A DNA stretch of 64,000 bases, taken from contig NZ_QBTZ01000001.1 in NCBI RefSeq assembly GCF_003058055.1, positions 2,048,501 through 2,112,500 on the forward strand, read 5' to 3'. How positions within the stretch are numbered: position 1 is the first letter of the stretch; every line of letters starts with the position of its first letter. This stretch comes from Acidovorax sp. 107 (GTDB lineage Bacteria > Pseudomonadota > Gammaproteobacteria > Burkholderiales > Burkholderiaceae_C). Positions 1,568 through 40,378 of the stretch are shown piece by piece. The notes beneath the pieces were generated by a model, which did no database searches, had not been told where the DNA came from, and saw nothing but the letters and a program-made list of their open reading frames with translations. The translations under genes and the position numbers were made by a program.

Positions 1568-1619
1568 CAAATCGGGCTCCTGTGCTTATTCAGCGGGCGC
1601 TGGAAGCTATAAAAACATA
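1568..1619 (-). repeat. Interspersed ~50-bp repeat, copy E (intergenic)
   Basis: Read on the minus strand it carries TTTTATAGCTTCCAGCGC, then after a variable middle AGGAGCCCGATTTG. This matches the order of conserved blocks in the copies near 15.3, 19.7, 25.7 and 40.3 kb. It lies between the convergent methyltransferase and exporter genes and ends just outside the permease stop codon. Confidence 0.6.
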
Positions 1620-1628
1620 AGCGCCCGT

Positions 1629-2762
1629 TCACGCCATGCGCGCAATCGTCTTGCGAAACCGCGCCAGCGCCAGGCTGAACAGCACCGCCCCAATGCCCAG
1701 CAGCCACACCAGCGACGGCCACACGACAGCCCAGCCCGCGCCCCGGTAGAGGATGGCCTGGGCCAGCTCGGTGAAGTGCGTGGTGGGCGCCAGCGCCATG
1801 CCGTACTGCACCCACAGAGGCATGCTCTCGCGCGGGGTGACGCCGCCCGACAGCATCTGCAGCGGCATCATCACCAGCACCATCAGCAAGCCAAACTGCG
1901 GCATGCTGCGCGCCACCGTGGCCATGAAGATGCCCATGGACGTGGTGGCAAACAGGTGCAGCGTGGCGCCTAGTAGAAACAGCGGCACCGAGCCCTCGAT
2001 GGGCACACCAATCGCCCAGCGGATCACCGCCGTGAGCGAAATCCACGTAGCGACCAGCACCACCAGCGCCATGGCCCAGACCTTGGCCAGCATGATCTCG
2101 CCGGGGGTGACGGGCATCACCAGCAAATGCTCCACCGTGCCGTGCTCGCGCTCGCGGATCAGCGCGGCGCCCGTGAGGATGATGGAGAGCATGGTCACGA
2201 TGTTGATCAGCTCCATGAGCGACCCGAACCACGCGGGGTTGAGCGCCGGGTTGAAGCGCGAGCGCACGGTGAGCTCAATGGGCTGCGCGGCCACGGTACG
2301 GTCGCGCTGCACAAACTCGGCCGCCTCCAGCTGCACGATCTGCTGCACCGCCCCGTTGGCCGCAAACGCCTGTCCCATGCGGGTGGCGTCGATGTTGAGC
2401 TGCACCTGTGGTACCCGGCCTGCCAGCACATCGCGCTGGAAATGCGCAGGGATGTGCAGCACCAGCGTGAAGCGGCCTGCATCCAGGCCCGGGTCCACCT
2501 CGCGCATGCTGATCATGGCGGGGCGTGTGAACTGGGGTGCGTAGAACGCGGTGGCGATGCGCTGGGACAAGGCCGAGTCGTCCTCATCCACGATGGCGAT
2601 CGGCACGTGGTACAGCGTCTCGGGCTGTGCCATGCCCGCCGAGTACACGGCTAGCGTGGTGGTGTAGACGATGAGGAACAGCATGGCCGGGTCGCGCCAC
2701 AGGCTCCACAGCTCCTTGATGCCTAACCTGAAAATGTTCGACCAACGGCCTCGCAGCGCCAT
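1629..2762 (-). CDS. yhhJ: ABC-2 type permease, YhhJ/YbhR-like
   Basis: A 377-aa integral inner-membrane protein of the ABC-2 family. It has an N-terminal transmembrane helix (about 25-45), a large periplasmic domain (about 50-180), and five or more hydrophobic helices in the C-terminal half. The cytoplasmic-interface signature LIREREHGTVEHLLVMP is the usual ABC-2 coupling motif. The start chosen is the ATG at 2762, one base past the stop of the preceding gene; longer upstream readings overlap that gene. It is the last gene of a three-gene operon (adaptor, fused ATPase/permease, this permease), the same order as E. coli yhiI-rbbA-yhhJ. The substrate is unknown; related exporters handle cationic drugs or lipophilic compounds. 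Confidence 0.82.
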   Translation of the reverse strand: MALRGRWSNIFRLGIKELWSLWRDPAMLFLIVYTTTLAVYSAGMAQPETLYHVPIAIVDEDDSALSQRIATAFYAPQFTRPAMISMREVDPGLDAGRFTLVLHIPAHFQRDVLAGRVPQVQLNIDATRMGQAFAANGAVQQIVQLEAAEFVQRDRTVAAQPIELTVRSRFNPALNPAWFGSLMELINIVTMLSIILTGAALIREREHGTVEHLLVMPVTPGEIMLAKVWAMALVVLVATWISLTAVIRWAIGVPIEGSVPLFLLGATLHLFATTSMGIFMATVARSMPQFGLLMVLVMMPLQMLSGGVTPRESMPLWVQYGMALAPTTHFTELAQAILYRGAGWAVVWPSLVWLLGIGAVLFSLALARFRKTIARMA

Positions 2763-2763
2763 G

Positions 2764-5535
2764 TCAGGTCTCCTGCTTGCGTAGCAGCAAGATCGCAGCG
2801 CCAACGATGACCGGCACCGCCACCAGCATGGGCCAGAACTCGGCCTGCAGGTCTTGCAAGGCGAGCGCCTTGTTGAACACGCCCCGGCTGATGGTGAACA
2901 TGTGGCTGGCCGGGTAGACCTCGCCCACCCAGCGCGCAAAGCCGGTCATGGACGACACCGGGTTGATGAGCCCCGCAAACTGCACCGCCGGGATGAGCGT
3001 GCCCACCATGGCAAAGAACATGGCCGCAATCTGGCTGCGTGTGACGGTGGAGGCCAGCAGCCCCATGCCCGTGGAGCACAGGCTGAACAGCACGGCGCCC
3101 AGCGTCAGCGTGGCAAAGCTGCCGGTGATGGGCACTCCAAACACCGTCACGGCCGCCAGGCACATGAGACCAAAGTTGAACAGCGCCAGCAGCACATAAG
3201 GCAGCTGCTTGCCCAGCATGAATTCGGTGCGCGTGGTGGGCGTCACATACAGGTTGATGATGGAGCCCAACTCTTTCTCGCGCACCACCGCCAGGGCCGT
3301 GAGCATGGCGGGCAGCATCAGCAACAGCAGCGGGATCACGGCAGGCACCATGGACGGCAGGCTGCGCACGTCGGGGTTGTAGCGGTAGCGCGGCTCCACC
3401 TCCAGCAGGCCCCGGGGCACCGTGCCCGTGCGGCTGCGGCTTTGCTCCACCAGCCACTGCTGGTGCAGGCCCTGGGCGTAGCCGATGACGGTCTCGGCGC
3501 GCTGGGGCATGGCGCCGTCCACCCACGCGCCGATCTGCACCGGCTGGCCGCGTGCCACGTCGCGTGCAAAGCCAGGCGGGATCTCCAGCGCCAGCGATAT
3601 CTCCGCGGACCGCATGCGCGCGTCCAGCTCGGCGTAGGTGGTGATGGGCGGCTGCTCGGTGAAGTAGCGCGAGCCCGCCAAGTTCAGCGTGTAGGCGCGG
3701 CTCAGCGCGGTCTGGTCGCGGTCCAGCACGGCAAAGCGCAGGTTCTCTACGTCCATGCTGATGCCGTAGCCCATCACAAACATCAGGATCAGCGAGCCCA
3801 GCAGCGCCATGGCGCCGCGCACCGGGTCGCGGCGCAGCTCCAGCGATTCGCGCCACTGGGTGCTGTGGATGCGGGCCAGGCTCTGGCGCAGGCGGGTGGG
3901 CCAGGTGGGGGCGTCGGGAACACGTACGGGCGATCGCGCAGCGGGCTCCGAAGCCTGCGCAGGCACAGGGTCTGGGGCCGTGCCCGCAGCATCCTCCAGG
4001 TAGCCGATGAAGGCTTCTTCCAGCGTGGCAGCGCCGCGTTTGGCCACGATGTCCTGCGGCGCTGCGCTCTCCAGCACGCGCCCTGCGTGCATCAGCGAGA
4101 TGCGGTCGCAGCGCTCGGCCTCGTTCATGAAGTGGGTGGAGATGAAGATGGTGACCTTGTCGCGCCGCGCCAGCTCCACCATCAGGCGCCAGAAGTTGTC
4201 GCGCGCCATCGGGTCCACGCCCGAGGTGGGCTCGTCCAGAATCAGCAGCTCGGGCTGGTGCACCATGGCCACGGCCAGCGACAGGCGCTGGCGCATGCCC
4301 AGCGGCAGCTTCATGGGCATGGACCCGCGCACGGCCTGCAGGTCAAAGCGCTCCAGCATGGCCGTCACGCGCCCGGGCACCTCGGCCTCGGGCACGTGAA
4401 ACAGACGGGCATGCAGCACCAGGTTCTGCTCCACCGACAGCTCGCTGTACAGCGAAAACGCCTGCGACATGTAGCCCACGCGCCGCCTCGTGGCCATGTC
4501 CTTGGGGTCCACCGGCTGGCCGAACAGCCAGGCCTGCCCGTCGCTGGCGGGCAGCAGGCCGGTGAGCATCTTCATGGTGGTGGACTTGCCGCAGCCGTTG
4601 CTTCCCAGAAAGCCAAAGATCTCGCCCCGCTGGATGCGAAAGCTCACATGGTCCACCGCCACGAAGTCGCCAAAGCGCATGGTGAGGTCGCGCGCCTCGA
4701 TGGCAACGTTGGTGGCGTCGTCTGCCTGCGACCGGTCCAGCGGCGGGATCTGCACCGCCTGGTGGCCCCGGCGCTTGGCCTCGGGCAGCAGTGCCACAAA
4801 GGCCTGCTCCAGCGAATCGTGGCCGGCGCGGGCCATCAGCTCGGCGGGGGTGCCTGTGGCCAGAATGTGCCCCTCGTCCATGGCCACCAACCATTCAAAG
4901 CGCTGGGCTTCCTCCATGTAGGCCGTGGCCACGATCACGCTCATGCAGGGCCGCGCGGCGCGGATGCGGCCGATCAGATCCCAGAACTGCGCGCGTGCCA
5001 GTGGGTCCACGCCGGTGGTGGGCTCGTCCAGAATGAGCAGGTCGGGGTCGTGGATGAGCGCGCAGCAAAGGGCCAGCTTCTGCTTCATGCCGCCCGAGAG
5101 CTTGCCCGCGGGCCGCGCTAGGAACGGGTGCAGGCCGGTACTGCGCGTGAGTTCATCGATGCGGCGCCGCCGCTCGGCCGCGCCGTGGCCGAACAGGCGG
5201 CCAAAGAACTGCAGGTTCTCTTCCACCGACAGCGTGGGGTACAGGTTCTTGCCCAGGCCCTGCGGCATGTAGGCGATGCGCGGGCACACGCGGCTGCGGT
5301 GGCGGCTTTTGGCCATGTCGCCGCCCAGCACCTCCACCGTGCCCTGCTGCACCGCGCGGGCGCCCGCCACCAGCGCCAGCAGGCTGGACTTGCCCACGCC
5401 GTCCGGCCCGATCAGGCCCACCATGCGGCCGGCAGCCACCTCCAGGTCGATGCCATCGAGCGCCACCGTGCGCCCGTAGCGCTGGCCTACGCCACGCAGG
5501 CGGGCCACGGGTGACACGCTGCCGGGGAGGCTCAC
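2764..5535 (-). CDS. rbbA: Fused ABC exporter: two ATPase domains plus ABC-2 permease, RbbA-like
   Basis: A 923-aa protein with two nucleotide-binding domains followed by a permease domain. NBD1 has Walker A GPDGVGKS (about residue 43), signature LSGGMKQK and Walker [17 protein letters not shown]2 (about 285-520) has Walker [10 protein letters not shown], Walker [14 protein letters not shown] and a non-canonical signature LPLGMRQRL. The C-terminal ~370 residues are an ABC-2 membrane domain with a large periplasmic loop and the [17 protein letters not shown] coupling motif. The start chosen is the GTG at 5535, which overlaps the TGA of the adaptor gene (GTGA); an upstream ATG would overlap that gene by 60 bp. 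This architecture is that of RbbA/YhiH, named for ribosome association in E. coli, although a transport role is more likely from the neighbours. Confidence 0.85.
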
Positions 5536-6602
5536 TGGTCGGCCTTGACGGCGAGGTTGGCGGGCCATTCCACCGCAGGGTCCACCCGCAGCCACGCCAC
5601 GCCGGGCAGACCGGTCTTGACCTGCTCCTGGTGGCGCAGCAGCAATGCCTTGTCGATCTGGGCCCGCACGCGGAACATGAGCTTCTGGCGCTCACTGGCG
5701 GTCTCCACCGTCTTGGGCGTGAACTGCGCGGTGCTGGCCACAAACGACACGGTGGCCGGGATCACAAAGCCCGGCGCGGCATCGAGCACGATGCGCACAT
5801 CGCTGCCCAGCGCCACGCGGCCCGCCACGGTTTCGGGCAGAAAGAAGGTCATGTACACATCGGTCAGGTCCACCAGCTGCAGCACGCGCGCGCCTGCGCC
5901 CACCACCTCGCCGGGCTGCACCACGCGGAACTGCACCCGCCCGTCGCGCGGGGCCTTGAGCTCGCTGTCGGCCAGCTCCACATCGATGCGGGCCAGCGTG
6001 GCCTCCAGCGCGCGCACGTTGGCTTCGGCGCTGGTCACCTGCGTGCGCGATGCGCCAATACCAGCCTGCGCGGCCTTGGCCTGGGCCTGGGCAGCCGTCA
6101 CAGCGGCCTGCTGGCTGCGCACCTTGGCGCGGTCGTCGTCAAGCAACTGGCTGGAGAAAAAACCTTCGCGCGCCAGCTGCTCAGAGCGTGGCAGGCGGCG
6201 GCGGGCAGTGTCGAGGTCGCTCTCGCGCTGGGCCACGACCGCCAATGCAGCCTGGTAGTCGCTTTCGCGCTGGGCCACCTGTACCTGCGCGCTGCTGATG
6301 GCCAGCTGCGCCTGCTGCAGCCGGGCCACGGCCTCTTCGCGCTGGGCTTGCAGGCCGTCGATCTGCATGCGGGCAACGGGCTGCCCGGCCTTCACGAAAT
6401 CGCCCTCGGCCACCAGGATGTCCTGCACCCGGCCCGCGAGCTTGGTGGCCACGGCGATCTCGGTGGCCTCGATGCGGCCGTTGCCGCTCACAAAGCCCGG
6501 GCCCGGCCCCCTGGACTGCCAGGGCGCCCACCGCACGACCAGCGCGGTGCCCAGCAACAACAGCGCTGCGACGGCCGCATAAATTTTCCACTTGCTGCCC
6601 AT
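5532..6602 (-). CDS. yhiI: HlyD-family periplasmic adaptor, YhiI-like
   Basis: A 356-aa membrane-fusion protein with an N-terminal membrane anchor (about residues 7-25). A split lipoyl domain surrounds a long alanine/glutamine-rich coiled coil (about 70-210). A beta-barrel domain follows, with [20 protein letters not shown] near the second lipoyl half. It would link the inner-membrane ABC exporter encoded downstream to an outer-membrane channel, which is not present here. It is the first gene of the operon and overlaps the ATPase gene by four bases, implying translational coupling. No adjacent regulator was found, and the 227-bp upstream gap to the DUF1569 gene shows no clear operator. Confidence 0.85.
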
Positions 6603-6829
6603 GGCTCTGATCCTCTTTGGTGCGGAGGCAGGAGCGCATTCGCCGTCACGTCAGCGAAGGCGCCTCACCTCAAAAAGCATCGTAAGCGCAGGGCCTGCAT
6701 TGGCTGCGTGCGGTCAGCCACCTCACTTGACTTGCATCAATTTGGCTGCAATTGCGTGGAGCCTCCGCCTGATACGCAAGGCTCTCCCTGCGGATTCAGA
6801 GGGGCAAGTGTCAGCTGTCAGAGCCTGAT

Positions 6830-7495
6830 CTAGCCGCGTCCATCAAAGGCCGACAGATGGTTGGCCAGGTGCATGGCATGCGCTTGCTCGTACTGCGGCC
6901 GGGTCAAGGCGCCGTAGGCAAAGTGGGGCTGCAGTGCGTCGGTGTGGATGGCAAAGCCCTGCACCGCCTGGCGCAGGCGTGCCATGGCAACCGATGCATC
7001 CGTGGTCGGCGCATCGAGCGCGGGGGCGCCCGGAATGGGCTCGGCCAGGTTGTGGCTCATGCGGCCACGCAGCGCAAACACCTGGAAAGCCGCAGTCCCC
7101 AGCGTGTTCTGGAACAGCGCTGACTTGGGCGACGGAAAACCCTGCAGCGAATACTCGATGCTCTGTGCGCAATGCACCAGCGTCTGCGCCCAGGTCCAGG
7201 CCGTGGCAGGCTCCAGCGCGTGGACGGCAGCCGCGTTCAGCCGCTCTGCCTCGCGCATCGCATCGTGCAGGGTGGCGAACACCAGTTGTCTGTCGTTGCC
7301 CGGTCGGTGCAGAAAATAGCCGGCTGCGCCAGCCGCAGCCAGGGCCGCCCCGGCACCAGCGGCCAGAAACGCCCGGCGACCAGACGCTGCGGGCGGCCCA
7401 GCGGGCGCAAGGCGGGCATCTGTGGGGCCGGTGACTGCGGGGGTTGCCGCGGACGGTGAGGCACCAGGTGCGCCAGAAGGTGGGGGGACTGCCAT
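6830..7495 (-). CDS. DUF1569 (DinB-superfamily-like) protein with Tat-like leader
   Basis: A 221-aa protein. The N-terminal ~40 residues are Pro/Ala-rich and precede SGRRAFLAAGAGAALAAAG, a twin-Arg-like hydrophobic segment ending near residue 60, so it is probably exported or membrane-anchored. The remaining part matches my recollection of DUF1569: SIEYSLQGFPSPKSALF, RGRMSHNLAEPIPGAPAL and the histidine-containing HAMHLANHLS at the end. DinB-like proteins are four-helix bundles whose histidines bind metal, so an enzymatic role is possible but unknown. It appears monocistronic, with about 130 bp to the next gene on the same strand. Confidence 0.7.
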   Translation of the reverse strand: MAVPPPSGAPGASPSAATPAVTGPTDARLAPAGPPAASGRRAFLAAGAGAALAAAGAAGYFLHRPGNDRQLVFATLHDAMREAERLNAAAVHALEPATAWTWAQTLVHCAQSIEYSLQGFPSPKSALFQNTLGTAAFQVFALRGRMSHNLAEPIPGAPALDAPTTDASVAMARLRQAVQGFAIHTDALQPHFAYGALTRPQYEQAHAMHLANHLSAFDGRG

Positions 7496-7631
7496 GGAGT
7501 TGCTTGCTCGCTTTGCCGTAGGGCGGTGAATGCGGCAATTGTGCCGCGCAGATACCGCTTTGTGGCCCCTGGCGGCCAGCCGCAGGGTCGGGCAGCCGAC
7601 ACAGCCCGCGATGTGAAGCGCAGCGGCAGCC

Positions 7632-8855
7632 CTACGCCACCAGGGTCGTTGTCGTGACAGGCGCAGCGGGGGCGGCAGGGGTGACGGGGGTGGTCGGGAC
7701 GGCAGTCATTTCCACGCGGTTGCGGCCGCGCTCCTTGGCCCGGTACATGGTTTCGTCCGCGCGCTGCAAGGCCGTGTCCGCCGCCTCACTGCCCGAGCAC
7801 AAAGTGACGCCAATGCTCACGGTGAGTGCGATGGTGCGCTGCTCGGTGACCACCGGGTGTGCCTCCACCAGGGCACGCAGGCGCTCGGCCACGGCAATGG
7901 CCCCACTGCCCACCGCATTGGGCAGGAAGATGGCGAACTCCTCGCCCCCCAGGCGGCCCATCACGTCCTCCTTGCGCAGACAGCGTTGGGCCAGCATCAC
8001 AAAATGCCGCAGTACATCGTCGCCTGCGCGGTGGCCCCAGCTGTCGTTGACCTTCTTGAAGTGGTCCAGGTCCATGACCAGCACCGGCAGCGTCGTCTGC
8101 GTGCGCTGGGCGTTGCTGATGGCCTTGTCCAGCAGGGTCAGAAAGGCGCGGCGGTTGAACACATTGGTCAGCGGGTCCACCTCGGCCAGGTGGCGCAGTT
8201 CGTTGGTGATGAACTCATTGGTGAGCATCAACGCACCAAACGCCACCAGCACCAGAGCGATGGTGGACTCCAGGACCACAAACTGCGACAGCGCAGCCAC
8301 CATGCCCGCTTCGGGTTGCGACAACTCCTGGGGCGTGGCCAGCTTGAACAGCATGGGCCGCACCAGCAAGAACACGCCATGCACGCCCACCGTGCCTGCA
8401 AACAGGTACCGTGCTGGCACCTTGCGAAAGCCGCCCCGTGCCATGGTGCGCGCGGCGAACAGGAAGCACACGCCAGGCACCAGGCCCGACAACACAAAAC
8501 GCACTTCCAGATTGGGCTGCACCACGGTGAAATATGCCACCGTCGTCAGCAGCAACACCAGGGCACCCGCAGCCACCCCGTGGTGCAGGGGGGCCCGCCC
8601 CGTGTATTCACGCGCGCCCAGCAGGCACAGGTAGGCCGTCATTGCGATGGAGCCCTGCGCCAACAACACGGAAGGCAACTGCGGCATGTGGTTCCGCAGC
8701 ATCAGGTTCATGCAGAACACCGTGGTGCAGAACAATGCCAGCGTCCACAACCGCAGCCCCGGGATGTTCCTGTTGAAGAACCACACGGCAGACAACACGG
8801 TGGTAACCAGCGCTGCAAGAATGGCCGCTACGATGACGAGGGTGGGGCTGTGCAC
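7632..8855 (-). CDS. Membrane diguanylate cyclase (GGDEF domain)
   Basis: A protein of about 407 aa. The N-terminal half holds six or seven hydrophobic helices (about residues 5-220), a membrane sensor without a recognisable named domain. The C-terminal GGDEF domain has DPLTNVFNRRAFL, LDHFKKVNDSWGHRAGDDVL and the active-site signature GRLGGEEFA, so it should make cyclic di-GMP from two GTP. The residues ahead of the signature do not show a clear RxxD I-site. The start is uncertain: the GTG at 8855 begins right before the first membrane helix and is preferred, whereas the frame stays open to 9110 with an implausible Arg/Pro/Cys-rich extension that would overlap the divergent gene. Confidence 0.85.
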   Translation of the reverse strand: MHSPTLVIVAAILAALVTTVLSAVWFFNRNIPGLRLWTLALFCTTVFCMNLMLRNHMPQLPSVLLAQGSIAMTAYLCLLGAREYTGRAPLHHGVAAGALVLLLTTVAYFTVVQPNLEVRFVLSGLVPGVCFLFAARTMARGGFRKVPARYLFAGTVGVHGVFLLVRPMLFKLATPQELSQPEAGMVAALSQFVVLESTIALVLVAFGALMLTNEFITNELRHLAEVDPLTNVFNRRAFLTLLDKAISNAQRTQTTLPVLVMDLDHFKKVNDSWGHRAGDDVLRHFVMLAQRCLRKEDVMGRLGGEEFAIFLPNAVGSGAIAVAERLRALVEAHPVVTEQRTIALTVSIGVTLCSGSEAADTALQRADETMYRAKERGRNRVEMTAVPTTPVTPAAPAAPVTTTTLVA

Positions 8856-9108
8856 TGTGGGGAAGAGGCGGGGCAGGTGTGGTGCCGACAAGGCGACTTT
8901 ATCGCGCCATGCATGGCCGCTATGCAAGCCGGGCGAAGGTTGGGTCGTTATCAGCGTGAACAATGGTAACCGAGAGACCCTGCGGCGCGGTGGAGATCGC
9001 GGCGCGCAGCAAGCCCGGTTTGTGATGTCGCAGTGGCTAGGCTGTAGTCCGCACAGCCAAGGCGCACCCCAAAAATAACCAGTACCAAGATCAGGAATCC
9101 AGTCCGTC

Positions 9109-9933: not shown

Positions 9934-9969
9934 ACCAAAGCGCCTGGGCTGCGCCGGCAGGACGCCGCA

Positions 9970-11256: not shown

Positions 11257-11385
11257 GCAGGTAATCCATAGCGTTGCTCATGCTCTTTGCAACTGGCGCG
11301 GCCCCGGGCCAGGACCGCCGAGCAAGGGCCGCCCCGCAGCGAGGGCGGTGTCCCTCTTCCCGAATCACGCAGTGATTCGAGAGAA

Positions 11386-11412: not shown

Positions 11413-11419
11413 TTGTTCT

Positions 11420-14058: not shown

Positions 14059-15288
14059 ATGCTCAACACCCTGTGGCTCGGTTTCTTTCTGACGGCGGCG
14101 GTGGCCGCGCTGGCCCAGTGGCTGGTGGGTGGCAATGCCGACATTTTTTCGGCCATGGTGCAGGCCCTGTTCCAGATGGCGAAGCTCTCGGTCGAGGTGA
14201 TGGTGCTGCTGTTCGGCACGCTCACGCTGTGGCTGGGTTTCTTGCGCATCGCCGAGAAGGCGGGTCTGGTGGACGCCTTGGCGCGCTGGCTGGCACCGCT
14301 GTTTGCCAGACTCATGCCCGGGGTGCCGCGCGGCCACCCGTCGCTCGGGCTGATCACGCTGAACTTTGCCGCCAACGCCCTGGGGCTGGACAACGCCGCC
14401 ACGCCCATGGGCCTGAAGGCCATGAAGGCGCTGCAGGAGCTGAACCCCCAGCCCGATACCGCCACCAACGCGCAAATCCTGTTTCTGGTGCTCAACGCGT
14501 CCTCGCTCACGCTGCTGCCGGTGACCATCTTCATGTATCGCATGCAGCAGGGTGCGCCCGACCCGACGCTGGTCTTCTTGCCCATCCTGCTGGCCACGTC
14601 CGCATCCACCCTGGTGGGCCTGCTGAGCGTGGCCGTGGTGCAGCGCCTGCCGCTGTGGAGCCCCGTGGTGCTGGCCTACCTGATGCCGGTGGCGCTGGTG
14701 CTGGGCGGCTTCATGGCGCTGCTCACCACGCTCAGCGCCGCCGCCCTGGCCTCGCTGTCGTCGCTGCTGGGCAACCTCACGCTGTTTGCGCTGGTCGTGC
14801 TGTTTGTAGGGTTGGGCGCCTGGCGCAAGGTGCCGGTGTATGAGGCGTTCATCGAAGGCGCCCGCGAGGGGTTTGATGTGGCCAAGGGCCTGCTGCCCTA
14901 CCTGGTGGCCATGCTGTGCGCGGTGGGCGTGTTCCGCGCCTCGGGGGCGCTGGGCTATGTGCTGGACGGCATCCGCTGGTGCGTGAACACGCTGGGCGCT
15001 GACGCCCGGTTTGTGGACGCCATGCCCACCGCCCTGGTCAAGCCGTTCTCAGGCAGCGCGGCGCGCGCCATGCTGATTGAGACCATGCAGACCCAGGGCG
15101 TTGACAGCTTTGCTGCCCTGGCCGCCGCCACGATCCAGGGCAGCACCGAAACCACCTTTTACGTGCTGGCGGTGTACTTTGGCGCAGTGGGCATCCAGCG
15201 CGCGCGGCACGCCGTGGGCTGCGCGCTGCTGGCCGAGCTGGCGGGCGTGGTGGCCGCCATCGCGGTGTGTTACCGGTTTTTTGGGTAA
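14059..15288 (+). CDS. SpmA/SpmB-like nucleoside-recognition (Gate) membrane protein
   Basis: A 409-aa inner-membrane protein with about ten hydrophobic helices and two related halves. The first half (about 1-200) matches SpmA-type sequence (LTLWLGFLRIAEKAGLVD, NALGLDNAATPMGLKAM). The second half (about 220-409) matches SpmB-type sequence (ALVKPFSGSAARAMLIETM, IQGSTETTFYVLAVYFGAVG). In Bacillus these are two proteins involved in spore-core dehydration; fused versions in non-sporulating proteobacteria have no established function, though the Gate fold suggests transport. It stands alone, followed by a convergent kinase gene and an interspersed repeat. Confidence 0.85.
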   Translation: MLNTLWLGFFLTAAVAALAQWLVGGNADIFSAMVQALFQMAKLSVEVMVLLFGTLTLWLGFLRIAEKAGLVDALARWLAPLFARLMPGVPRGHPSLGLITLNFAANALGLDNAATPMGLKAMKALQELNPQPDTATNAQILFLVLNASSLTLLPVTIFMYRMQQGAPDPTLVFLPILLATSASTLVGLLSVAVVQRLPLWSPVVLAYLMPVALVLGGFMALLTTLSAAALASLSSLLGNLTLFALVVLFVGLGAWRKVPVYEAFIEGAREGFDVAKGLLPYLVAMLCAVGVFRASGALGYVLDGIRWCVNTLGADARFVDAMPTALVKPFSGSAARAMLIETMQTQGVDSFAALAAATIQGSTETTFYVLAVYFGAVGIQRARHAVGCALLAELAGVVAAIAVCYRFFG

Positions 15289-15340
15289 TTTTGGCTGGTA
15301 GCGCTAGTGCAATATACCCAAACAGCTATCAATTATATAG
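15287..15340 (-). repeat. Interspersed ~50-bp repeat, copy A (intergenic)
   Basis: Read on the minus strand it gives ATTGATAGCTG, then CACTAGCGCTA and a GGCC-like end (CCAGCC), in the same block order as the other four copies. It fills the short gap between the convergent SpmA/SpmB-like gene and the kinase gene. Confidence 0.65.
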
Positions 15341-15351
15341 CAGACAGAATA

Positions 15352-18112: not shown

Positions 18113-18114
18113 GG

Positions 18115-19563: not shown

Positions 19564-19660
19564 GGTCGGTAGGCTAACAGGGGGGCTGCAGGCGGTGGCT
19601 CGCGCGCAATCGGCGGGAGCAGGGGCGATCAAGCCGCCACTGTAACCGCATTTTTCAGTG

Positions 19661-19715
19661 TTTTTGGCCGCAAGCGCTAGTGGAACATGCGCAAGCAGCT
19701 ATCAAAAACATAGTA
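19661..19715 (-). repeat. Interspersed ~50-bp repeat, copy B (intergenic)
   Basis: Read on the minus strand: TTTGATAGCTGCTTGCGC, a spacer, then CACTAGCGCTTGCGGCCA. It sits in the divergent promoter region between exonuclease I and the lytic transglycosylase, so it may affect either promoter. Confidence 0.7.
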
Positions 19716-19785
19716 AGTATATTCACCGTACGGACTGATGCACATTCGCACCCCGTACACGTGCCGCCGCGCGGGACAATGGTGC

Positions 19786-22920: not shown

Positions 22921-25900
22921 TCAATGAAAGTCCCGGCTCCCCTGCAACGCCTGCCCCATGCGGCCCAGCAGCGGGGTCAGGTCTTTGAAGCGCTGGGCCA
23001 CCAGGTGGCGCACCACGGCCGTGCTGCCGGGTGGGCCCGCGCTGCATTGCCACACCCCCTCCACCGCCAGCAGCTGTGACCGCAGCAGCGCGTTGCGCCA
23101 CGCATCGACCATGGCGGGCCAGACGATGACATTGACGGGGCCGGTTTCGTCCTCCAGCGTGACGAACATCGTGCCCTTGGCGGTGCCGGGGCGCTGGCGT
23201 ACGGTGACGATGCCGCAGGCGCGCACCTTGCGGCCGTGGGCGGCGCCGTGCAATTGCAGGGCGGTTTGCAGGCGCCAGCGAGCCAGGCGGGGGCGCAGCA
23301 GGGCCAGGGGGTGGCGACGCAACGTCAAGCCGGTGGCGGCGTAGTCGAACAGGATTTCTTCGCCTTCGGGCGCCTGGGGCAGTTGCAGCGGGGCCTCGTG
23401 CACGGACACGTCGCGCCACAGGGGAGGCGCCGCGTGCTGGGCGGCAGCGTCCCACATCTGCTGGCGCCGGTGGCCCGACAGGCTGGCCAGGGCGTCGGCG
23501 GCGGCCAGGGCCTGCAGGTCTTGCTGGCTCAGTTGCGCGCGCAGGGCCAGGTCTTCGGTGCTGGCAAAGGCGGGGCCTGTGGCGCGGGCTTGCAGCAGGC
23601 GCTGGGCAGCGTCTGCGTGCAGGCTGCCCACCATCCGCAGGCCCAGGCGCACGGCAGGCTGGGGCAGCGGCGGTGCGCCCAAGCCGCGTGCGGGGCGCAG
23701 CGGCTCGGGGTTGCCCTCCAGGGTGCAGTCGATGTCGCTCACGGTCACGTCGATGGGCAGCACGCGCACGCCGTGGCGGCGGGCGTCCTGCACGAGTTGC
23801 GAGGCGCTGTAAAAACCCATGGGCAACGAGTTGAGCAGCGCCGCCAAAAAGCATGCGGGCTCGTGGCACTTGAGCCAGCTGCTGGCATAGGCCAGCAGCG
23901 CAAAGCTGTGGGCATGGCTTTCGGGAAAGCCGTATTCACCAAAGCCCAGCATCTGCTGGAAGATGCGGTCGGCAAATTCGGCGGGGTAGCCCCGGTCTTT
24001 CATGCCTTGTTTGAGAGGCTCTTCAAAACGATGCACGCCGCCCTTGCGCTTCCACGCGGCCATCGAGCGGCGCAAGTCGTCGGCCATGCCGGGCGTGAAG
24101 CCCGCCGCGATCATGGCGATCTGCATCACTTGTTCCTGGAAGATGGGCACGCCGAGCGTGCGCGCCAGGGCGTTCTCCAGCTCGGGCTTTTCGAGTTGAA
24201 GCGGTTCACCCCTGCGCCGACGCTCGCGCGCCTGCAGGTAGGGGTGCACCATGCCCCCCTGGATGGGGCCGGGCCGCACGATGGCGACCTCGACCACCAG
24301 GTCGTAGAACTGGCGCGGCTGCAGGCGGGGCAGCATGCTCATCTGGGCGCGGCTTTCGATCTGGAACACGCCCACGGTGTCGGCGGCGCAGATCATGTCG
24401 TAGGTGGCGGGGTCTTCGCGCGGGATCTCCTTGATACCCCAGCGCTCGCCGCGCAGGGCTTCGCGCAGGTTGAGGCAGCGGCGCAGCGCGCTGAGCATGC
24501 CCAGAGCCAGCACATCGACCTTGAGCAGGCCCATGTCATCAAGGTCGTCCTTGTCCCACTGGATGACGGAACGCTTTTCCATGCTGGCAGGCTCCACAGG
24601 CACCAGCCGCGTGAGCTTGCCCTGGGTCAGCACAAAGCCGCCCACATGCTGGCTCAGGTGGCGCGGAAAGTCCTTCAGGTCGGCAGCCAGCTCCAGCCAC
24701 AGCCGGGCGGTGTGCCGGTGCAGCGACACGCCCACCGCCTGGGACAGTTCCTGGAGGCGGTCGGTGGCAAAGGTCTCGTCAAACCAGTGGTGGTCTTTGG
24801 CAAACGCATCGACCAGAGCGGGCTCCACGCCCAGGGCCTTGCCCACGTCGCGCAGGGCGCTGCGCGTGCGGTAGCAGGTGACCACGGCGGCAATGGCGGC
24901 GCGGTCGCGGCCGTATTTGTCGTAGATGTACTGGATGACCTCTTCGCGCCGGTCGTGCTCGAAGTCCACATCAATGTCGGGCGGCTCGCTGCGCTCTTTG
25001 CTGATGAAGCGCTCGAACAGCAGGTGGGAATCCTCGGGGTCCACCGCGGTGATGCCCAGCACGTAGCAGACCACCGAGTTCGCCGCCGAGCCCCGGCCCT
25101 GGCACAAAATGTCCACGCTGCGCGCAAACCGCACGATGTCATGCACGGTCAGGAAGTACATCTCGTACCCGCAGTGCGCGATCAGGTCGAGCTCTTTGCG
25201 GATCTGCGCCTGCACCCTCTCGGGCGCGCCCAACGGGTAGTGGCTTTGCACCCCCAGCTCCACCAGCCAGGCCAGCGCCTGGGCAGGGGTCATGCCCGTG
25301 GGCACGGTCTCCAGCGGGTATTGGTACTTGATCTCGTCCAGACAGAAGGTGCAGCGCCCAGCCACGGCAAGCGTGGCCGCCAGCAACTCGGGTGGGTAGA
25401 TGCCGGCCAGCCGCACGCGCTGGCGCAGGTGCCGCTCGGCATTGGGTTGCAGCGCAAAGCCGCACTCGGCCACGCTGCAACCCAGCTTCACGGCGGTGAT
25501 CACGTCCTGCAGCGGCTTGCGCGAACGGGCGTGCATGTGCACGTCGCCCGCGGCCACCAGCGGCAGCTGCAGCGCAGCGCCCACACGCTGCAGCGTGGCC
25601 AGCCACAGGCTGTCATCAGGAGCCATGTGCAGTTCGACCGCCAACCACAGGTGCGTGTCAAACTTTGAGCCCAATTGGCCTATAGCGCCCGTTATAAATG
25701 CGCTGACAGCTATAAAATCAGAAGCATCAAAGCGCTGGCGACAAGGCGACAGCAGCAGCTCGCACCCCTGCAGCAAGTGCCAGGGGCTGTCCGCGTCCAC
25801 GCGGTAGTGCCCCTTGGGTGCTGCGGCCCGGGCGGCGGTGATGAACTCGCACAGGTTGCCCCAGCCCTCGGCATCGCGTGCCAGTGCCACCAGCCGCAGG

Positions 25901-26184
25901 TCGCCCCACAAGAACTCGCTGCCCACGATGAGGTGCAGGCCACAGGCCTTGGCGGCACCCCAGGCACGCACGACGCCGGCGACGGAGCATTCGTCCGTCA
26001 GCGCCAGCGCCTGGTAGCCCAGCTTGGCAGCGCGCGCCACCAGCTCTTTGGGGTGTGATGCTCCCCGCTGAAAGCTGAAGTTGGACAGACAATGCAGCTC
26101 GGCATAGCCCGGCAGTTCGCCCACGCCCGCTGCGGGGCCTGGCACGGCCGCGGCCTGCGAAGAGAGTCGATGCATCAAGCCCAT
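22921..26184 (-). CDS. dnaE2: Error-prone DNA polymerase DnaE2
   Basis: A 1087-aa C-family polymerase used in SOS translesion synthesis. The N-terminal PHP domain starts at YAELHCLSNFSFQRGASHP and retains LALTDECSVAGVVRA. The palm carries the catalytic aspartates in PPDIDVDFEHDRREEV and further family motifs in GRGSAANSVVCYVLGI, HVGGFVLTQGKLT and FPESHAHSFALLAYASSWLK. A helix-hairpin-helix and an OB fold (ACGIVTVRQRPGTAKGTMFV) lie at the C-terminus. The ATG at 26184 avoids a 75-residue extension overlapping imuB. Residues about 153-171 are encoded by a copy of the interspersed repeat, an apparent in-frame insertion in the PHP region. Confidence 0.95.
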   Translation of the reverse strand: MGLMHRLSSQAAAVPGPAAGVGELPGYAELHCLSNFSFQRGASHPKELVARAAKLGYQALALTDECSVAGVVRAWGAAKACGLHLIVGSEFLWGDLRLVALARDAEGWGNLCEFITAARAAAPKGHYRVDADSPWHLLQGCELLLSPCRQRFDASDFIAVSAFITGAIGQLGSKFDTHLWLAVELHMAPDDSLWLATLQRVGAALQLPLVAAGDVHMHARSRKPLQDVITAVKLGCSVAECGFALQPNAERHLRQRVRLAGIYPPELLAATLAVAGRCTFCLDEIKYQYPLETVPTGMTPAQALAWLVELGVQSHYPLGAPERVQAQIRKELDLIAHCGYEMYFLTVHDIVRFARSVDILCQGRGSAANSVVCYVLGITAVDPEDSHLLFERFISKERSEPPDIDVDFEHDRREEVIQYIYDKYGRDRAAIAAVVTCYRTRSALRDVGKALGVEPALVDAFAKDHHWFDETFATDRLQELSQAVGVSLHRHTARLWLELAADLKDFPRHLSQHVGGFVLTQGKLTRLVPVEPASMEKRSVIQWDKDDLDDMGLLKVDVLALGMLSALRRCLNLREALRGERWGIKEIPREDPATYDMICAADTVGVFQIESRAQMSMLPRLQPRQFYDLVVEVAIVRPGPIQGGMVHPYLQARERRRRGEPLQLEKPELENALARTLGVPIFQEQVMQIAMIAAGFTPGMADDLRRSMAAWKRKGGVHRFEEPLKQGMKDRGYPAEFADRIFQQMLGFGEYGFPESHAHSFALLAYASSWLKCHEPACFLAALLNSLPMGFYSASQLVQDARRHGVRVLPIDVTVSDIDCTLEGNPEPLRPARGLGAPPLPQPAVRLGLRMVGSLHADAAQRLLQARATGPAFASTEDLALRAQLSQQDLQALAAADALASLSGHRRQQMWDAAAQHAAPPLWRDVSVHEAPLQLPQAPEGEEILFDYAATGLTLRRHPLALLRPRLARWRLQTALQLHGAAHGRKVRACGIVTVRQRPGTAKGTMFVTLEDETGPVNVIVWPAMVDAWRNALLRSQLLAVEGVWQCSAGPPGSTAVVRHLVAQRFKDLTPLLGRMGQALQGSRDFH
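25671..25725 (-). repeat. Interspersed ~50-bp repeat, copy D (inside dnaE2)
   Basis: Minus-strand blocks TTTTATAGCTGTCAGCGC and GGGCGCTATAGGCCAATT match the other copies in order and spacing. Here the repeat is translated in frame with dnaE2 as roughly DFIAVSAFITGAIGQLG, without a stop codon. It sits between the CRQRFD and LWLAVELHM segments of the PHP domain. Confidence 0.7.
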
Positions 26185-26203
26185 GGACAACCGCCCCGCC
26201 CAC

Positions 26204-27808
26204 TCACCCAAAGATTCCGTGCAAAAACCAGCGGTGGGGGCGTGCCGCCGCCTGTCCGCCAGCGGGCGATGGCGCCAGACGCTCGCGAAACACCCAAACC
26301 AGCCCCGCCACGTCGTTGTGGGCCACAAAATAGTCGCGCAAGGCCAGACCCGCGCAGGGGTCTGCCGGGTCCACGCCGTCGTCCATGGCAGACCACCAGC
26401 CCGCCTCAAACCGGTGGGGCCCGGCCAGCAGGCGCAGCAAGCCGTGGTGGCAAGGGCGGTTGCCCTGGACGGCCAGCCGCCGGGGCGGGTTCAGCAACCA
26501 GGTGGGCAGCAAGGGGGCATCCGGGGTGATGCACTGCGGCGCATCGCCACCAGCACGGGGGGCCGCAGAACGGGTGGGCGCACCCAGCACGTCAGCGGCC
26601 GGGCGCCACTGCTGCATGCGTTCGGGCCGGTGGTCGGCCAGCAGCACCGGGGCCACTACCCGGTCGGCTCCCAGGCGGGCCGACAGACGCTCCAGCAGTT
26701 GGTGCAGGGCCTCGCCGGGAGCACCGGCCGGGTCGGCGCTGCCATGGCTTGCAGGGCCGCGCGCCCCGACCTCTCCAGGGGGCAGCAGGCTGGCGCTGCG
26801 GTGCGGCAGCGGGGCCGATTCAAGCAGGCGCAGCATGATCTGGTTGACCGGTGCGGCCAGCGTGGTGCGCGCGAGGCTTTCGGCCAGCAGGCGCCGCAGG
26901 TGCACCAGGTCGTGGATGGCCTGGGCGGTACGCACCTGCAGCGCCTGGGTGGGGGGCAACGCCACGCCATCGATGCGCCGCAGGTCGTGGCGCCAGACCA
27001 GCTCCAGTGCCAGCACGCCCTGCTGGCGCGCCTGCAGCCAGGCCTGCAGGGCCGTCAGGCAGCGGCTTGCGCTCCACAGCAGTGCCTCGGCCGACTCGGC
27101 CAATGCGGGCAGCTCGGTGGTCAACGCAAACTGCTCGGGCAGTTGCAGCCAGGCATGGGCCTCGGGGGCATCGCCCAGGGCCTGGTCCAGCACCTGCAGC
27201 ACGCCAGCTCCCAGGCGCCGCGCCACGCCCGCACGTGGCAGAGCCTGCAGAGCGCCCCAGGTGCGGCAACCCATCCGCTCCAGGCTGGCTACATGGGGGC
27301 GCAGCGCCGTCAGGGTATGCAAAGGCAGGCTCTCTACCCGGCCCTGCGATGGGCCGGGGCGCCCTGCCAATGCCATGCGTAGCCTGGCCTGGGCCACCAA
27401 GGCCGTCGGGCCGGCACCCCACACTGGCGGCGAACAAGGGGGGGTAGAGGGTGATGCACAGAGCGGCTGGGCTGTGGCCGATTCGCTGGCCGGGGCCTGC
27501 TGTTGAGCACTGCGGGCAGGCGCGTTGGCCGCAGCCTCCCCCGTGCCCCTGGCAGCTGCGTCGGCCCAGGCCTGCAGCACCAGCGCCAGCAATGCCTCGC
27601 GCCCGCCCCACAGGCGCTCGGTGGTGGACACCTCCAGCAACACCACCTCGCCATCGGCCAGTGCCACACGCGGCGTAAAGCGCAATGCCCACCAGCCTGC
27701 GGCCGCGCTAAGCGCTGCGGCATCTGCAGCTGCGCCCATTCCTGCACCTGTGCCCGGCGGGGCGGCAGATTCATCGTGCCAGGGCAATGGCAGTGCGATC
27801 CAGTGCAT
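26204..27808 (-). CDS. imuB: ImuB, catalytically inactive Y-family polymerase homologue
   Basis: A 534-aa protein of the Y-family fold that acts as the hub of the ImuA-ImuB-DnaE2 mutasome and contacts the sliding clamp. It starts MHWIALPLPW at 27808, within the end of imuA (38-bp overlap). LLEVSTTERLWGG aligns with the polymerase palm, but the two acidic catalytic residues of active Y-family enzymes are absent, as usual for ImuB. The helix-hairpin-helix/thumb region includes LERMGCRTWGALQALPRAGV. The C-terminal region contains a Pro/Gly/Ala-rich low-complexity stretch before the terminal LRDYFVAHNDVAGLVWVFRE. Strong operon coupling to imuA and dnaE2. Confidence 0.92.
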   Translation of the reverse strand: MHWIALPLPWHDESAAPPGTGAGMGAAADAAALSAAAGWWALRFTPRVALADGEVVLLEVSTTERLWGGREALLALVLQAWADAAARGTGEAAANAPARSAQQQAPASESATAQPLCASPSTPPCSPPVWGAGPTALVAQARLRMALAGRPGPSQGRVESLPLHTLTALRPHVASLERMGCRTWGALQALPRAGVARRLGAGVLQVLDQALGDAPEAHAWLQLPEQFALTTELPALAESAEALLWSASRCLTALQAWLQARQQGVLALELVWRHDLRRIDGVALPPTQALQVRTAQAIHDLVHLRRLLAESLARTTLAAPVNQIMLRLLESAPLPHRSASLLPPGEVGARGPASHGSADPAGAPGEALHQLLERLSARLGADRVVAPVLLADHRPERMQQWRPAADVLGAPTRSAAPRAGGDAPQCITPDAPLLPTWLLNPPRRLAVQGNRPCHHGLLRLLAGPHRFEAGWWSAMDDGVDPADPCAGLALRDYFVAHNDVAGLVWVFRERLAPSPAGGQAAARPHRWFLHGIFG

Positions 27809-38373: not shown

Positions 38374-38376
38374 GGG

Positions 38377-39330
38377 TCAGTCGAGTTTGATATTGCCCTT
38401 CTTCACCACCTCGCCCCACTTCGCGTCTTCCTTTTTCAAGAAGGCGGCAAAGTCTGCGGGTGTGGAGCCCACGGGCTGTGCGCCCAGGTCGGCCAGGCGC
38501 TGCTTCACTTCATCTTCCTTCAGCACGTCTTGCAGAGCCTGCTGCAGCTTGGTGGCGATGGGGGCGGGCACGCCTGCGGGCAGGAACACGCCGTTCCACT
38601 CATAGGCCTCGTAGCCGGGGATGGCAGCTTCGGCCACCGTGGGCACATCAGGCAGGCGCTTGGAGCGCTCAGGGGCCGACACAGCCAGCGCGCGCAGTTT
38701 GCCGCCCGCCACATGCGGGTAGGTGGCCGCCACGGTGCCGAACATGAAGTCCACCTGGCCTGCCATCACATCGGTGATGGCCGGGCCGCCGCTCTTGTAG
38801 GGCACATGCACCATATCGAGGCCCAGCTTCTGCGCCATCAGCTCCGCCGCGAGGCGCTGCACCGTGCCGCTGCCGCCCGAGGCAAAGTTGATCTTGCCCG
38901 GCTGTGCCTTGGCCTTGGCAATCAGCTCGCCTACGTTCTTGTAGGGCGCATCGGCCTTCACGATGAGCACGTTGGGCGCCAGCAGCACCAGCGACAGCGG
39001 CTGCAGTGCGTTGGCGGCATACGGCATCTTGGGGAACAGGTGCGGGTTGATGGAGTACGGCGTGGCGTCGTACAGCATGGTGTAGCCATCTGCCGGGGCC
39101 TTGGCCACAAAGCTCGCGCCAATGGTGCCGCTGGCACCGGCCTTGTTGTCCACGATCACGCTGCCGCCCAGCTTGGCACCCAGGCGGGTGGCCACCACAC
39201 GGGCCACGGCATCGGCCGCACCGCCGGGGGCGTAGGGTACGACGATGGTGATGGGCCGGTCAGGAAAGGCGTGGGCCACGCCAGCAGCCAGGGCGCAGGC
39301 GGCGATCAGGGGTTTGAGGAAGCGAAGCAT
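38377..39330 (-). CDS. Bug-family tripartite tricarboxylate transporter receptor 1
   Basis: A 317-aa periplasmic solute-binding protein. The signal peptide (MLRFLKPLIAACALAAGVAHA) is followed by FPDRPITIVVPYAPGGAADA, the family signature. Later VPYKSGGPAITDVMAGQVDFMF and the C-terminal PVGSTPADFAAFLKKE are typical. Bug proteins bind carboxylates or other small molecules; most genomes carry many more of them than TctAB permeases. The ATG at 39330 has GGAGA upstream; a slightly longer TTG start is less likely. No permease gene is present in the window. Confidence 0.93.
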   Translation of the reverse strand: MLRFLKPLIAACALAAGVAHAFPDRPITIVVPYAPGGAADAVARVVATRLGAKLGGSVIVDNKAGASGTIGASFVAKAPADGYTMLYDATPYSINPHLFPKMPYAANALQPLSLVLLAPNVLIVKADAPYKNVGELIAKAKAQPGKINFASGGSGTVQRLAAELMAQKLGLDMVHVPYKSGGPAITDVMAGQVDFMFGTVAATYPHVAGGKLRALAVSAPERSKRLPDVPTVAEAAIPGYEAYEWNGVFLPAGVPAPIATKLQQALQDVLKEDEVKQRLADLGAQPVGSTPADFAAFLKKEDAKWGEVVKKGNIKLD

Positions 39331-39370
39331 CGGTGTCTCCAATCAGTTCTGGGTTCTACAACAGGGCCGC

Positions 39371-40378
39371 TCAATCTGCTTTGAGGTCGAGCGCCTTGGC
39401 AATCTGGCTATAGGTGGTCACTTCGCGGGCCACGCGGGTGGCAAAGGCGTTGCCGCAGACCGATTCGGCATCCAGCCCCAGGCCGCGCAGCTTGTCGGTG
39501 GCCGATTCGCTCTTGGCAAAGTCGGCCGCTGTGCGCTCCAGCGCTTGGGCGATGGGCTCGGGCAAGCCTGCCGGGGCCAGCACGCCGTACCACACGTCGG
39601 CAGCGTAGTTGCCACCGCCTGCCTCGGCAAATGTGGGCACATCGGGCACCAGGGCGGAGCGTTTGGGCGCGCCCACGGCCAGCGCTCGCAGCTTGCCGCT
39701 CTGGATCTGCGGCAGCACCGAGCCCAAGGTTGCGAACGAGCTGTCGAGCTGGCCGCCCATCAGGTCTGTCACCACCGGCGCGGCGCCCTTGTAGGGCACG
39801 TGGTTGAGCTGCAGGCCCTGGGCGCGCGCAAACACCTCGGTGGCGAAATGGCCTGAGCTGCCCACCCCCGCCGTTCCTGCCGTCACGCGTCCGGGCTCGG
39901 CACGGGCCTTGGCCTGGTAGTCGGCCAGGGTCTTCACCGGCAGGCTGGGGGCCACCACCAACACTGTGGGGCTGCTGGCCACCGTGCACAGGGGGCGGAA
40001 GGACTTCACCGCATCAAACTTGACGCGGCCCTGGTACAGCGCCGGAATCATGGTGTGGTTGGTGGCGCCAAACAGCAGCGTGTAGCCATCGGCCGGGGCG
40101 CTGGCCACAGCCTGCGCGGCAATGATGGTGCCCGCGCCGGGCTTGTTGTCGATGATGAAGGGCTGGCCCAGCGCGCGGCTGGCGTGGTCGGCAAACGCAC
40201 GCGCCACCACGTCGGTGGGGCCGCCTGCAGCAAAGCCCACCACCAGCTTCACGGGCTTGGTGGGGTAGCCTGCCGCACCTGCTTGTGCGTGGGCGGCGCT
40301 AGACGCTACTAAAACAATAGCTGCCAGCGCATGATTGACTAGCGCAAGAGGCCTATTTTTCTTGAAATTGCATGCCAT
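39371..40378 (-). CDS. Bug-family receptor 2, with a repeat-derived signal peptide
   Basis: A 335-aa periplasmic solute-binding protein. After a leader with hydrophobic core (LALVNHALAAIVLVASSAAHA) come YPTKPVKLVVGFAAGGPTDV, VPYKGAAPVVTDLMGGQLDS and a normal C-terminus. The ATG at 40378 is preceded by CAGGAGA. The codons for about residues 8-25 coincide with copy C of the interspersed repeat, so the leader appears to be built from repeat DNA. The protein has only one or two Cys (CTVASSPTV), not typical lipoprotein positions. Confidence 0.92.
   Translation of the reverse strand: MACNFKKNRPLALVNHALAAIVLVASSAAHAQAGAAGYPTKPVKLVVGFAAGGPTDVVARAFADHASRALGQPFIIDNKPGAGTIIAAQAVASAPADGYTLLFGATNHTMIPALYQGRVKFDAVKSFRPLCTVASSPTVLVVAPSLPVKTLADYQAKARAEPGRVTAGTAGVGSSGHFATEVFARAQGLQLNHVPYKGAAPVVTDLMGGQLDSSFATLGSVLPQIQSGKLRALAVGAPKRSALVPDVPTFAEAGGGNYAADVWYGVLAPAGLPEPIAQALERTAADFAKSESATDKLRGLGLDAESVCGNAFATRVAREVTTYSQIAKALDLKAD
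40303..40360 (+). repeat. Interspersed ~50-bp repeat, copy C (inside a signal-peptide coding region)
   Basis: Plus-strand blocks AAAACAATAGCTGCCAGCGC, then after a spacer CTAGCGCAAGAGGCCTATTT match the other copies in order. On the minus strand it is translated in frame as the n-region end and hydrophobic core of the Bug receptor signal peptide. Confidence 0.72.

Follow-up and report, generated by a model that had tools for sequence, protein, structure and literature searches.

The DUS of Neisseriaceae and the USS of Pasteurellaceae are about 10-12 bp long and occupy both coding and non-coding places. Rickettsia palindromic elements (RPEs) are insertions relative to orthologues. By the account of Frye et al. 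(2013, PMC3630211), DUS are described as high-copy dispersed sequences, numbering in the thousands, whose dialects follow phylogeny. REPs, according to excerpts of PMC3733652 and PMC2817692, are units of 20-40 bp, mostly tagged by GTAG or CGTC, often paired, flanking RAYT and present in tens to hundreds of identical copies; the first of these sources places them mostly downstream of coding regions, with some inside replication or repair genes. The Beta-proteobacterial repeat element (BRE) is given, in the excerpts of PMC3110155, as about 90 bp long, with a GC content of about 69% in Bordetella, frequently in tandem and in at most 29 copies, occurring in Comamonadaceae among others, with some copies inside ORFs.

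We analysed a window of 64,000 nucleotides, the whole stretch of DNA under study, from the Acidovorax sp. 107 genome (G000), which was compared in detail with its nearest relative, G444, and with G455. The window carries six copies of a dispersed repeat with a 66-bp unit composed of GCTAT-N7-ATAGCT, a core, GGCC and AT tracts, holding about 57 bits of information. The conserved span runs from about -13 to +51, counted from the A of ATAGCT (about 64-66 bp), and 27 of the 66 consensus positions are G or C. An initial annotation had listed five copies of about 50 bp; all five are present where it placed them and share one register, the real unit is longer, and the profile HMM by which the copies in the window were scored adds a sixth.

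Copy 1 (1559..1624, minus strand, 31.4 bits) is intergenic between the convergent ORFs of a methyltransferase (818-1438, plus) and an ABC-2 permease (1629-2939, minus). Convergent ORFs also enclose copy 2 (15278..15343, minus, 52.7 bits), which takes in the final 11 nt of ORF 14059-15288 (plus), is followed by ORF 15352-16680 (minus) and has an orthologous copy in G444. Copy 3 (19651..19716, minus, 61.2 bits), likewise found in G444, separates the divergent ORFs of an exonuclease (18115-19632, minus) and a lytic transglycosylase (19738-21168, plus). Save for the 11-nt overlap, these three are intergenic, as annotated. The newly added copy 6 (50671..50736, plus, 22.4 bits) lies in the intergenic space between convergent ORFs 48969-50669 (plus) and 50763-52436 (minus), with orthologous copies in both G444 and G455. 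Rfam gave no match within the window at the gathering score, nor did Pfam for three ORFs at copies. Such a repeat is apparently undescribed in this common bacterial family; our literature searches yielded no account of it.

The proposal of a genome-wide family, intergenic and coding and translated without breaking the frame, was borne out: a 464-kb stretch of G000 holds 65 copies, against none in reversed DNA, which extrapolates to about 690 per chromosome. Genome-wide, the pattern ATAGCT-N3..6-GCGC-N5..25-AGCGC has 115 matches versus 2 for its reversed form, and a rigid version with N4 and N10 spacers has 109 versus 0. Lengthening the second spacer by one (N11) left no match in the genome, and the spacing is therefore fixed; this control bears on spacing only and is uninformative on distribution. 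Stretches of the three genomes contain 65, 64 and 63 copies, about one site per 6-7 kb of chromosome. Scored with a shared matrix, the weakest copies reach 19-23 bits, the top non-copy position 9.7 bits and reversed DNA at most 8.1 bits; as nothing in the three stretches scores between about 10 and 19 bits, the copies form a discrete class. Despite the 57-bit motif, mean identity between copies is 53%, and the highest pairwise values are 0.77, 0.77 and 0.80. Synonymously shuffled genes exceeded 14 bits in 0/359, 4/313 and 2/287 cases; that these are element-bearing genes retaining element codons is only a guess.

Two copies in the window lie within genes. Copy 4 (25662..25727, minus; 49.5 bits by HMM, 69 bits by matrix) is translated in sense and in frame within the DnaE2 ORF (22921..26409, minus; Pfam PHP, DNA_pol3_alpha, finger and HHH_6), the start codon of which is probably over-extended, and forms residues ~228-249 of its 1162 amino acids. 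The annotated in-frame translation is correct; the copy lies shortly past the Pfam PHP match, which spans residues 104-214. The nucleotide motif is present in DnaE2 of 33 of the 36 close orthologues in the genus, the exceptions being G445, G471 and G479, genomes with one strict site each, in which the protein has the same length at this point. The segment is recognisable in several further genera. The outcome that the initial annotation named as refuting it, the presence of such segments in distant orthologues, thus holds in part, but the cores are lineage-specific and in more remote DnaE2s this region is several residues shorter. An ancient insertion is conceivable as the origin of the copy at this site alone. 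GC3 in DnaE2 is 0.30 inside the element versus 0.865 outside (30 loci), and the corresponding codons of the motif-free G471 and G479 genes are not AT-rich. Synonymous codon identity in the element (0.78) is unexceptional, since other windows of the gene range over 0.56-0.84. A leave-one-out test showed that the DnaE2 copy matches the dialect of its own lineage.

Copy 5 (40303..40368, plus; 57.3 bits by HMM, 79 bits by matrix) is antisense in a Bug/TctC receptor gene (39371..40420, minus; Pfam TctC, E 2e-66). Its complement encodes FKKNRPLALVNHALAAIVLVA, most of the Bug signal peptide, in agreement with the initial annotation. Of 19 close orthologues, 18 carry this copy, the exception being an element-poor genome, and in G445 the gene is motif-free at the same length. 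The signal-peptide segment has a GC3 of 0.26-0.52 against 0.83-0.91 (18 loci). In DnaE2 and in the Bug signal peptide alike, the protein is best read as having made room for a DNA signal.

Comparison of orthologous loci bears on how copies arise. Among 58 G000 sites tried against G444, 21 were not alignable; the other 37 were all occupied, with none absent. No clean empty site was seen in the comparisons of G000 with G444 and G455, and two weak G455 copies face G000 gaps that are 87 and 101 bp shorter, in poor alignments. In 12 motif-free comparisons, covering six genes in which the copies are weaker (24-37 bits), the orthologue had the same length, and 11 of 23 motif-free comparisons showed a gap nearby. 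Because the motif is present or absent in several conserved genes without a change in length, point substitutions appear to write or erase sites, by gain or loss. The same-length orthologues do not support the suggested in-frame insertion in the manner of RPEs, and the suggested mobility fared no better: the closest copies in the stretches scanned are 77-80% identical, empty sites of a clean kind were not seen and positions are static. If this is right, in-frame repeat-like protein segments, a caution of wider use, need not stem from insertions.

The substitutions are also unevenly distributed. In 42 pairs of orthologous copies between G000 and G444, mismatch was 0.108 in columns above 1 bit versus 0.230 in columns below 0.5 bit, and in 19 pairs with G455 it was 0.180 versus 0.494; the high-information columns are thus the slowest to change between orthologous sites. 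Low-information columns outpace the flanks, an excess that selection alone does not explain and that counts against the reading as a DNA signal. It is very improbable that the family is an inert relic, an old repeat merely decaying: such decay would account for the low identity among copies, but not for column-specific conservation, which contradicts a uniform rate, nor for the AT-rich codons found in element-bearing DnaE2s and missing from G471 and G479, the empty score interval or the existence of lineage dialects.

The copies are evenly spaced, with 0, 1 and 0 gaps below 500 bp in the three genomes versus 8.2, 8.8 and 7.0 expected, and a second replicon of 190 kb has 1 copy versus 26.6 expected. 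A replication-polar signal was considered and rejected: plus/minus counts per 820-kb bin were 9/5, 8/9, 7/16, 9/6, 6/13 and 4/4, giving no consistent polarity (96 of 115 pattern matches, binned by coordinate with the origin not located; two bins lean minus). Only 28-34% of copies fall within rough gene calls, and two of the six frames account for 46 of 60 such copies from the three genomes, some of them mutually orthologous. The remainder favour 3' ends, at a median distance of 19-36 nt from adjacent 3' ends and 80-114 nt from 5' ends, and occupy convergent more than divergent gaps (14/42 versus 6/42 in G000, 10/33 versus 6/35 in G444, and 17/45 versus 0/36 in G455). This preference would suit an RNA-level 3' end element, either an mRNA stabiliser or a terminator, as would the incorporation of some copies in terminator-like hairpins, the three terminator-like sites adjoining copies 1 and 2 (a scan of 1-20000 found 18 versus 11.6 expected) and a fold z averaging -1.52 over the best 30 copies of G000. 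However, 18 of the 65 G000 copies lie in rough gene calls, 6 in sense and 12 in antisense, ten copies of the G340 dialect show no fold excess (z -0.01), and base-pair covariation is slight, with no pairing excess in the left and right dyads and a weak one in the core at pairs 6-32 and 8-30, making this explanation improbable. The small share of copies in genes and the 3'-end preference of the others, also expected from a role in the transcript, count against the reading as a DNA signal.

It is unlikely as well that the copies belong to an old, slowly moving family of REP/RAYT or other mobile type and are rewritten in place. Several dialects have a palindromic core, a RAYT-like gene (NF047646) adjoins gltB in G000, PF01797 matches occur in 37 of 40 genus genomes, and the element lies near the RAYT 3' end in five of eight neighbourhoods from element-bearing genomes, in one at only 12 bits; near-identical copies do occur in the DUF1010 cassette arrays of G466. 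Against this, the stretches of the three genomes have no near-identical copies, copies are over-dispersed rather than clustered, the same-length motif-free orthologues strain the idea, no RAYT in these neighbourhoods has close elements on both sides, and 142 of the 150 family genomes have RAYT relatives although the majority of them are element-free. The RAYT neighbourhoods of two element-poor genomes contained no element. RAYT was rejected as a driver, its presence being uncorrelated with that of the elements.

The left dyad GCTAT-N7-ATAGC is constant and the core differs by lineage. Such a high-copy dispersed motif, common within a genome and differing in dialect between lineages, is of the type seen in uptake sequences. 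Quite plausibly, though by no means assuredly, we are dealing with a dispersed DNA signal for a putative DNA-binding factor and not an inserted element. More tentatively, the analogy suggests that it may serve to recognise self DNA, much as uptake sequences do, although with 66 bp and 57 bits it greatly exceeds known uptake sequences in length. It is doubtful, yet conceivable, that it would represent a third, independent bacterial self-DNA recognition system, so far seen in only one Burkholderiales family: a modular 66-bp watermark on the chromosome that has lineage dialects, enters even conserved proteins through point mutation and is read by a putative DNA receptor. Under the signal model, sites at fixed places would be written and erased by point substitution, and a putative trans-acting factor would recognise the 66-bp site. 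Drift of its core specificity among lineages, followed by the whole set of sites, could yield the dialects. If marked chromosomal DNA were handled preferentially, good sites might then spread through selection or molecular drive to any place where the coding sequence allows it.

Even spacing, rarity on the second replicon, fixed sites and dialects would suit equally well a site for a chromosome-organising or replication/repair protein, for instance a condensin-like complex or a large protein of the nucleoid, needed every few kb, with each site weakly selected directly and the dialects tracking the protein. We regard this as a possible but rather unlikely account; sufficiently strong selection at about 700 sites, some in conserved coding sequence, is a tall requirement. 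Known organising sites (parS, matS, KOPS) are much shorter or fewer than the present ones. If the signal reading is right, several hundred sites per chromosome would constitute one co-evolving system that marks core chromosome versus plasmid DNA and shapes proteins, including DnaE2, a signal peptide and part of a Pfam domain of unknown function, that offers a natural experiment on how a binding factor evolves jointly with a large set of sites, and that provides a way to find the protein which reads it.

Set beside the described systems, the repeat resembles BRE, so far as its source excerpts go, in occurring in Comamonadaceae with some copies in ORFs; identity with BRE was rejected on composition and arrangement alone (G or C at 27/66 positions, not tandem, 65 per 464 kb). 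It shares with REP/REPIN-RAYT, as these appear in the excerpts cited, high-copy palindrome-bearing units mostly 3' of coding regions and sometimes in replication or repair genes, but differs in having no near-identical copies (at most 0.77, 0.77 and 0.80, the G466 arrays excepted), almost no closely spaced copies, no rayt flanked by two inverted copies and no correlation with rayt presence. Like RPEs, it is translated in frame within proteins; unlike them, it has several motif-free orthologues of the same length, a difference against which the 11 comparisons with a nearby gap weigh. From DUS and USS it departs in being 66 bp long and built in modules, with 57 bits and several hundred copies, rather than a short motif, and it joins them in its high-copy dispersed sites, coding and non-coding, with lineage dialects.

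All five copies of the interspersed repeat reported in the initial annotation were confirmed, and a sixth was added at positions 50671-50736 (+) of the window. The repeat stands, with a unit of 66 bp in place of the roughly 50 bp first described. The element holds 57.5 bits of information (192 copies, stretches of three genomes: Acidovorax sp. 107, or G000, and its sampled relatives G444 and G455; G numbers denote genomes of the same genus or family). Counted from the A of ATAGCT as 0, its conserved blocks are GCT at -12, ATAGCT at 0, GCGC at 10, AGCGC at 24 and GGC(C) at 33, with AT tracts near -4, 39 and 49. Spacing is rigid, the correct spacer yielding 109 matches and one additional base none.

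Scanning with a profile, as had been proposed, revealed 65 copies in 464 kb of G000, 64 in 400 kb of G444 and 63 in 400 kb of G455, and none in the reversed DNA of the same three stretches with the same position matrix. This density of one per 6.3-7.1 kb extrapolates to about 690 elements on the 4.92-Mb chromosome. A strict pattern matched between 0 and 397 times per genome in the genus, at least once in 39 of the 40 genomes scanned, and was present in 35 of 150 family genomes. A core-independent pattern (GCTAT-N7-ATAGC-N28-GGCC) was found in 53 of these 150, with two control matches, and in five of nine family members of an order-wide sample of 300. Beyond the family, it matched once each in 5 of 291 genomes, which is at chance level since the control gave single matches in seven genomes of the order-wide sample.

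The element is not a recent mobile repeat. The earlier view of a mobile element is not supported, given low copy identity, fixed occupied sites and over-dispersed copies. Within single genomes of the three stretches, no copies exceeded about 80% identity (mean 53%). Near-identical copies are, by contrast, found in G466, within its DUF1010 cassette arrays. Among 58 G000 sites tried, 37 were occupied in G444, none was empty and 21 were unalignable. In G455, 13 of them were occupied, 43 were unalignable and 2 were scored as absent, the lengths there differing greatly. Conversely, G444 sites were present in G000 in 38 cases, absent in 2 and unalignable in 20, and G455 sites in 15, 4 and 37. One of these six reverse-direction absences is of near-equal length (105 vs 96 bp expected), with a terminator hairpin in both genomes and a degenerate G000 side; two weak G455 copies lie opposite a G000 gap shorter by 87 and 101 bp, in poor alignments, and the remaining three differ in length by about 600 to 1200 bp. 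Under a null preserving the coding/non-coding split, spacing was over-dispersed (CV 0.89, 0.74 and 0.67 vs 1.11, 1.07 and 1.05), these values not being independent, as many sites are common to G000 and G444. Almost all family genomes have RAYT relatives, with or without elements.

Comparison of the two protein-coding hosts with their orthologues, also proposed at the outset, showed the DnaE2 segment to be present in 33 of 36 close orthologues within the genus (4 of the 40 genomes lacking one) and the Bug signal-peptide copy in 18 of 19 (one weak, 23 bits; missing in G445). The motif-free DnaE2 orthologues are those of G445, G471 and G479, genomes with one strict site each; they are ungapped across the element and have a gap of 3-4 residues directly after. 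GC3 in DnaE2 is 0.30 within the element vs 0.865 outside (30 loci), and in two motif-free genomes measured the segment is GC-rich (0.86 and 0.73). The Bug/TctC receptor family is itself very large, with at least 52 matches in 27 of 40 genus genomes.

When coding copies were compared with their orthologues in other sampled genomes (76 comparisons), the orthologue bore the element in 53 cases, 37 without a length change and 16 with a nearby gap. In the other 23 cases it did not, 12 of these, from six genes, being of equal length and 11 having a nearby gap. The copies in those six genes are weaker, at 24-37 bits, and well above the 9.7-bit background. Among conserved proteins, G444:340672 scores 27 bits vs -59 in G471 and -39 in G479, G444:336657 scores 32 vs -75 and -70 in motif-free orthologues, G000:270085 scores 35 (31 in the orthologous G455 copy, -80 in G345), and G455:252974 scores 19 by a shared matrix vs -12 in G000 and -43 in G444. 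At several genes the element is present or absent by substitution, whether gained or lost.

The motif is discrete and static, rich in information, and conserved at its own columns. Mismatch was 0.108 in high-information and 0.230 in low-information columns for orthologous G444 copies (42 pairs), and 0.180 and 0.494 for G455 (19 pairs); Spearman correlations of column information with mismatch were -0.61 and -0.73, and -0.62 for 8 G444-G455 pairs. The whole element changes faster than its flanks (0.166 vs 0.089; intergenic copies, flanks indel-filtered), which means that its free columns are fast and counts against a simple maintenance story.

The frame of the element is kept in other genera, with cores that differ by genus: GCCGGCG..CGCCGGC in G171, AAACTATGRCCATTTGACGGGGGCTAA in G340 and AGTGGCC..AAGGGCTAC in G345. 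G454 and G450, of the same genus, share a CGCGCGG variant. Two common genus cores, GCGCTTGATGGATAAGCGC and GCGCTTATCCATCAAGCGC, are mutual reverse complements, as inversion or a template switch at the hairpin might produce. With each matrix built without the genome's own DnaE2 copy, the own-genome matrix scored the DnaE2 core best in five of nine genomes (G455, G454, G171, G340 and, by the small margin of 5.6 vs 4.0, G345); in G000, G444, G450 and G453 the better scorer came from the same dialect group. A fixed site in one gene therefore tracks the other copies of its own genome, suggesting a factor that acts in trans. When all copies were assigned, their own genome was recovered for G340 (10/10), G171 (12/13), G345 (7/9) and G314 (28/35), and less often for G000 (22/65), G444 (19/64), G455 (39/62), G453 (0/9), G454 (6/12) and G450 (1/6), as expected under shared dialects within the latter two trios.

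Rough gene calls place 18, 21 and 21 copies of the three genomes in coding sequence, with antisense frame 1 (26/60) and sense frame 1 (20/60) the predominant frames; the consensus is open in the former and has one stop in the latter. Intergenic copies are commoner in convergent than divergent gaps and lie near gene 3' ends. Some copies are now built into GC-stem, T-tail hairpins resembling terminators (G455 region 212283; locus L328:11733 of G453; window 50671-50736). The longest element-free gap in the scanned chromosome is 44 kb, with metabolic and transport genes (10 of 31 called genes scanned). The 190-kb second replicon of G000 (C2) has one copy vs 26.6 expected; a 20-kb piece of it gives an 88.8% match to the Polaromonas sp. 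JS666 plasmid of 338 kb.

A 54-59-bit copy also occurs in the DUF1010 cassette of class 1 integrons, between dfrA12 and aadA2, as in an E. coli plasmid (NZ_MZ513635.1, L260:2352-2642, cassette annotated as a gene) and in Salmonella (AB571791.1, L261), which suggests that the cassette originates from this bacterial family. The start of Pfam PF06231 (DUF1010) resembles an antisense translation of the element (LASSA..SASSY). In G000, one copy coincides with a weak match to DUF1010, at C1:2936756-2936833. Arrays of DUF1010 units, each with a similar element, lie at L297:9502-11483 (G466, units about 320 bp apart), L298 and L299, and are probably chromosomal integron cassettes.

We infer that a putative DNA-binding factor reads the element. 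The function of the element might, at a guess, be to mark self-DNA in the way of uptake sequences, since these are a known case of dispersed motifs that form dialects (PMC3630211); the main rival, a chromosome-organising site, fits the present data equally well. Neither a prior description of the motif nor a match to its sequence words was found in the literature searched, mostly outside subscription journals. The nearest repeat found there, BRE (PMC3110155), differs from the element in GC, arrangement and number.
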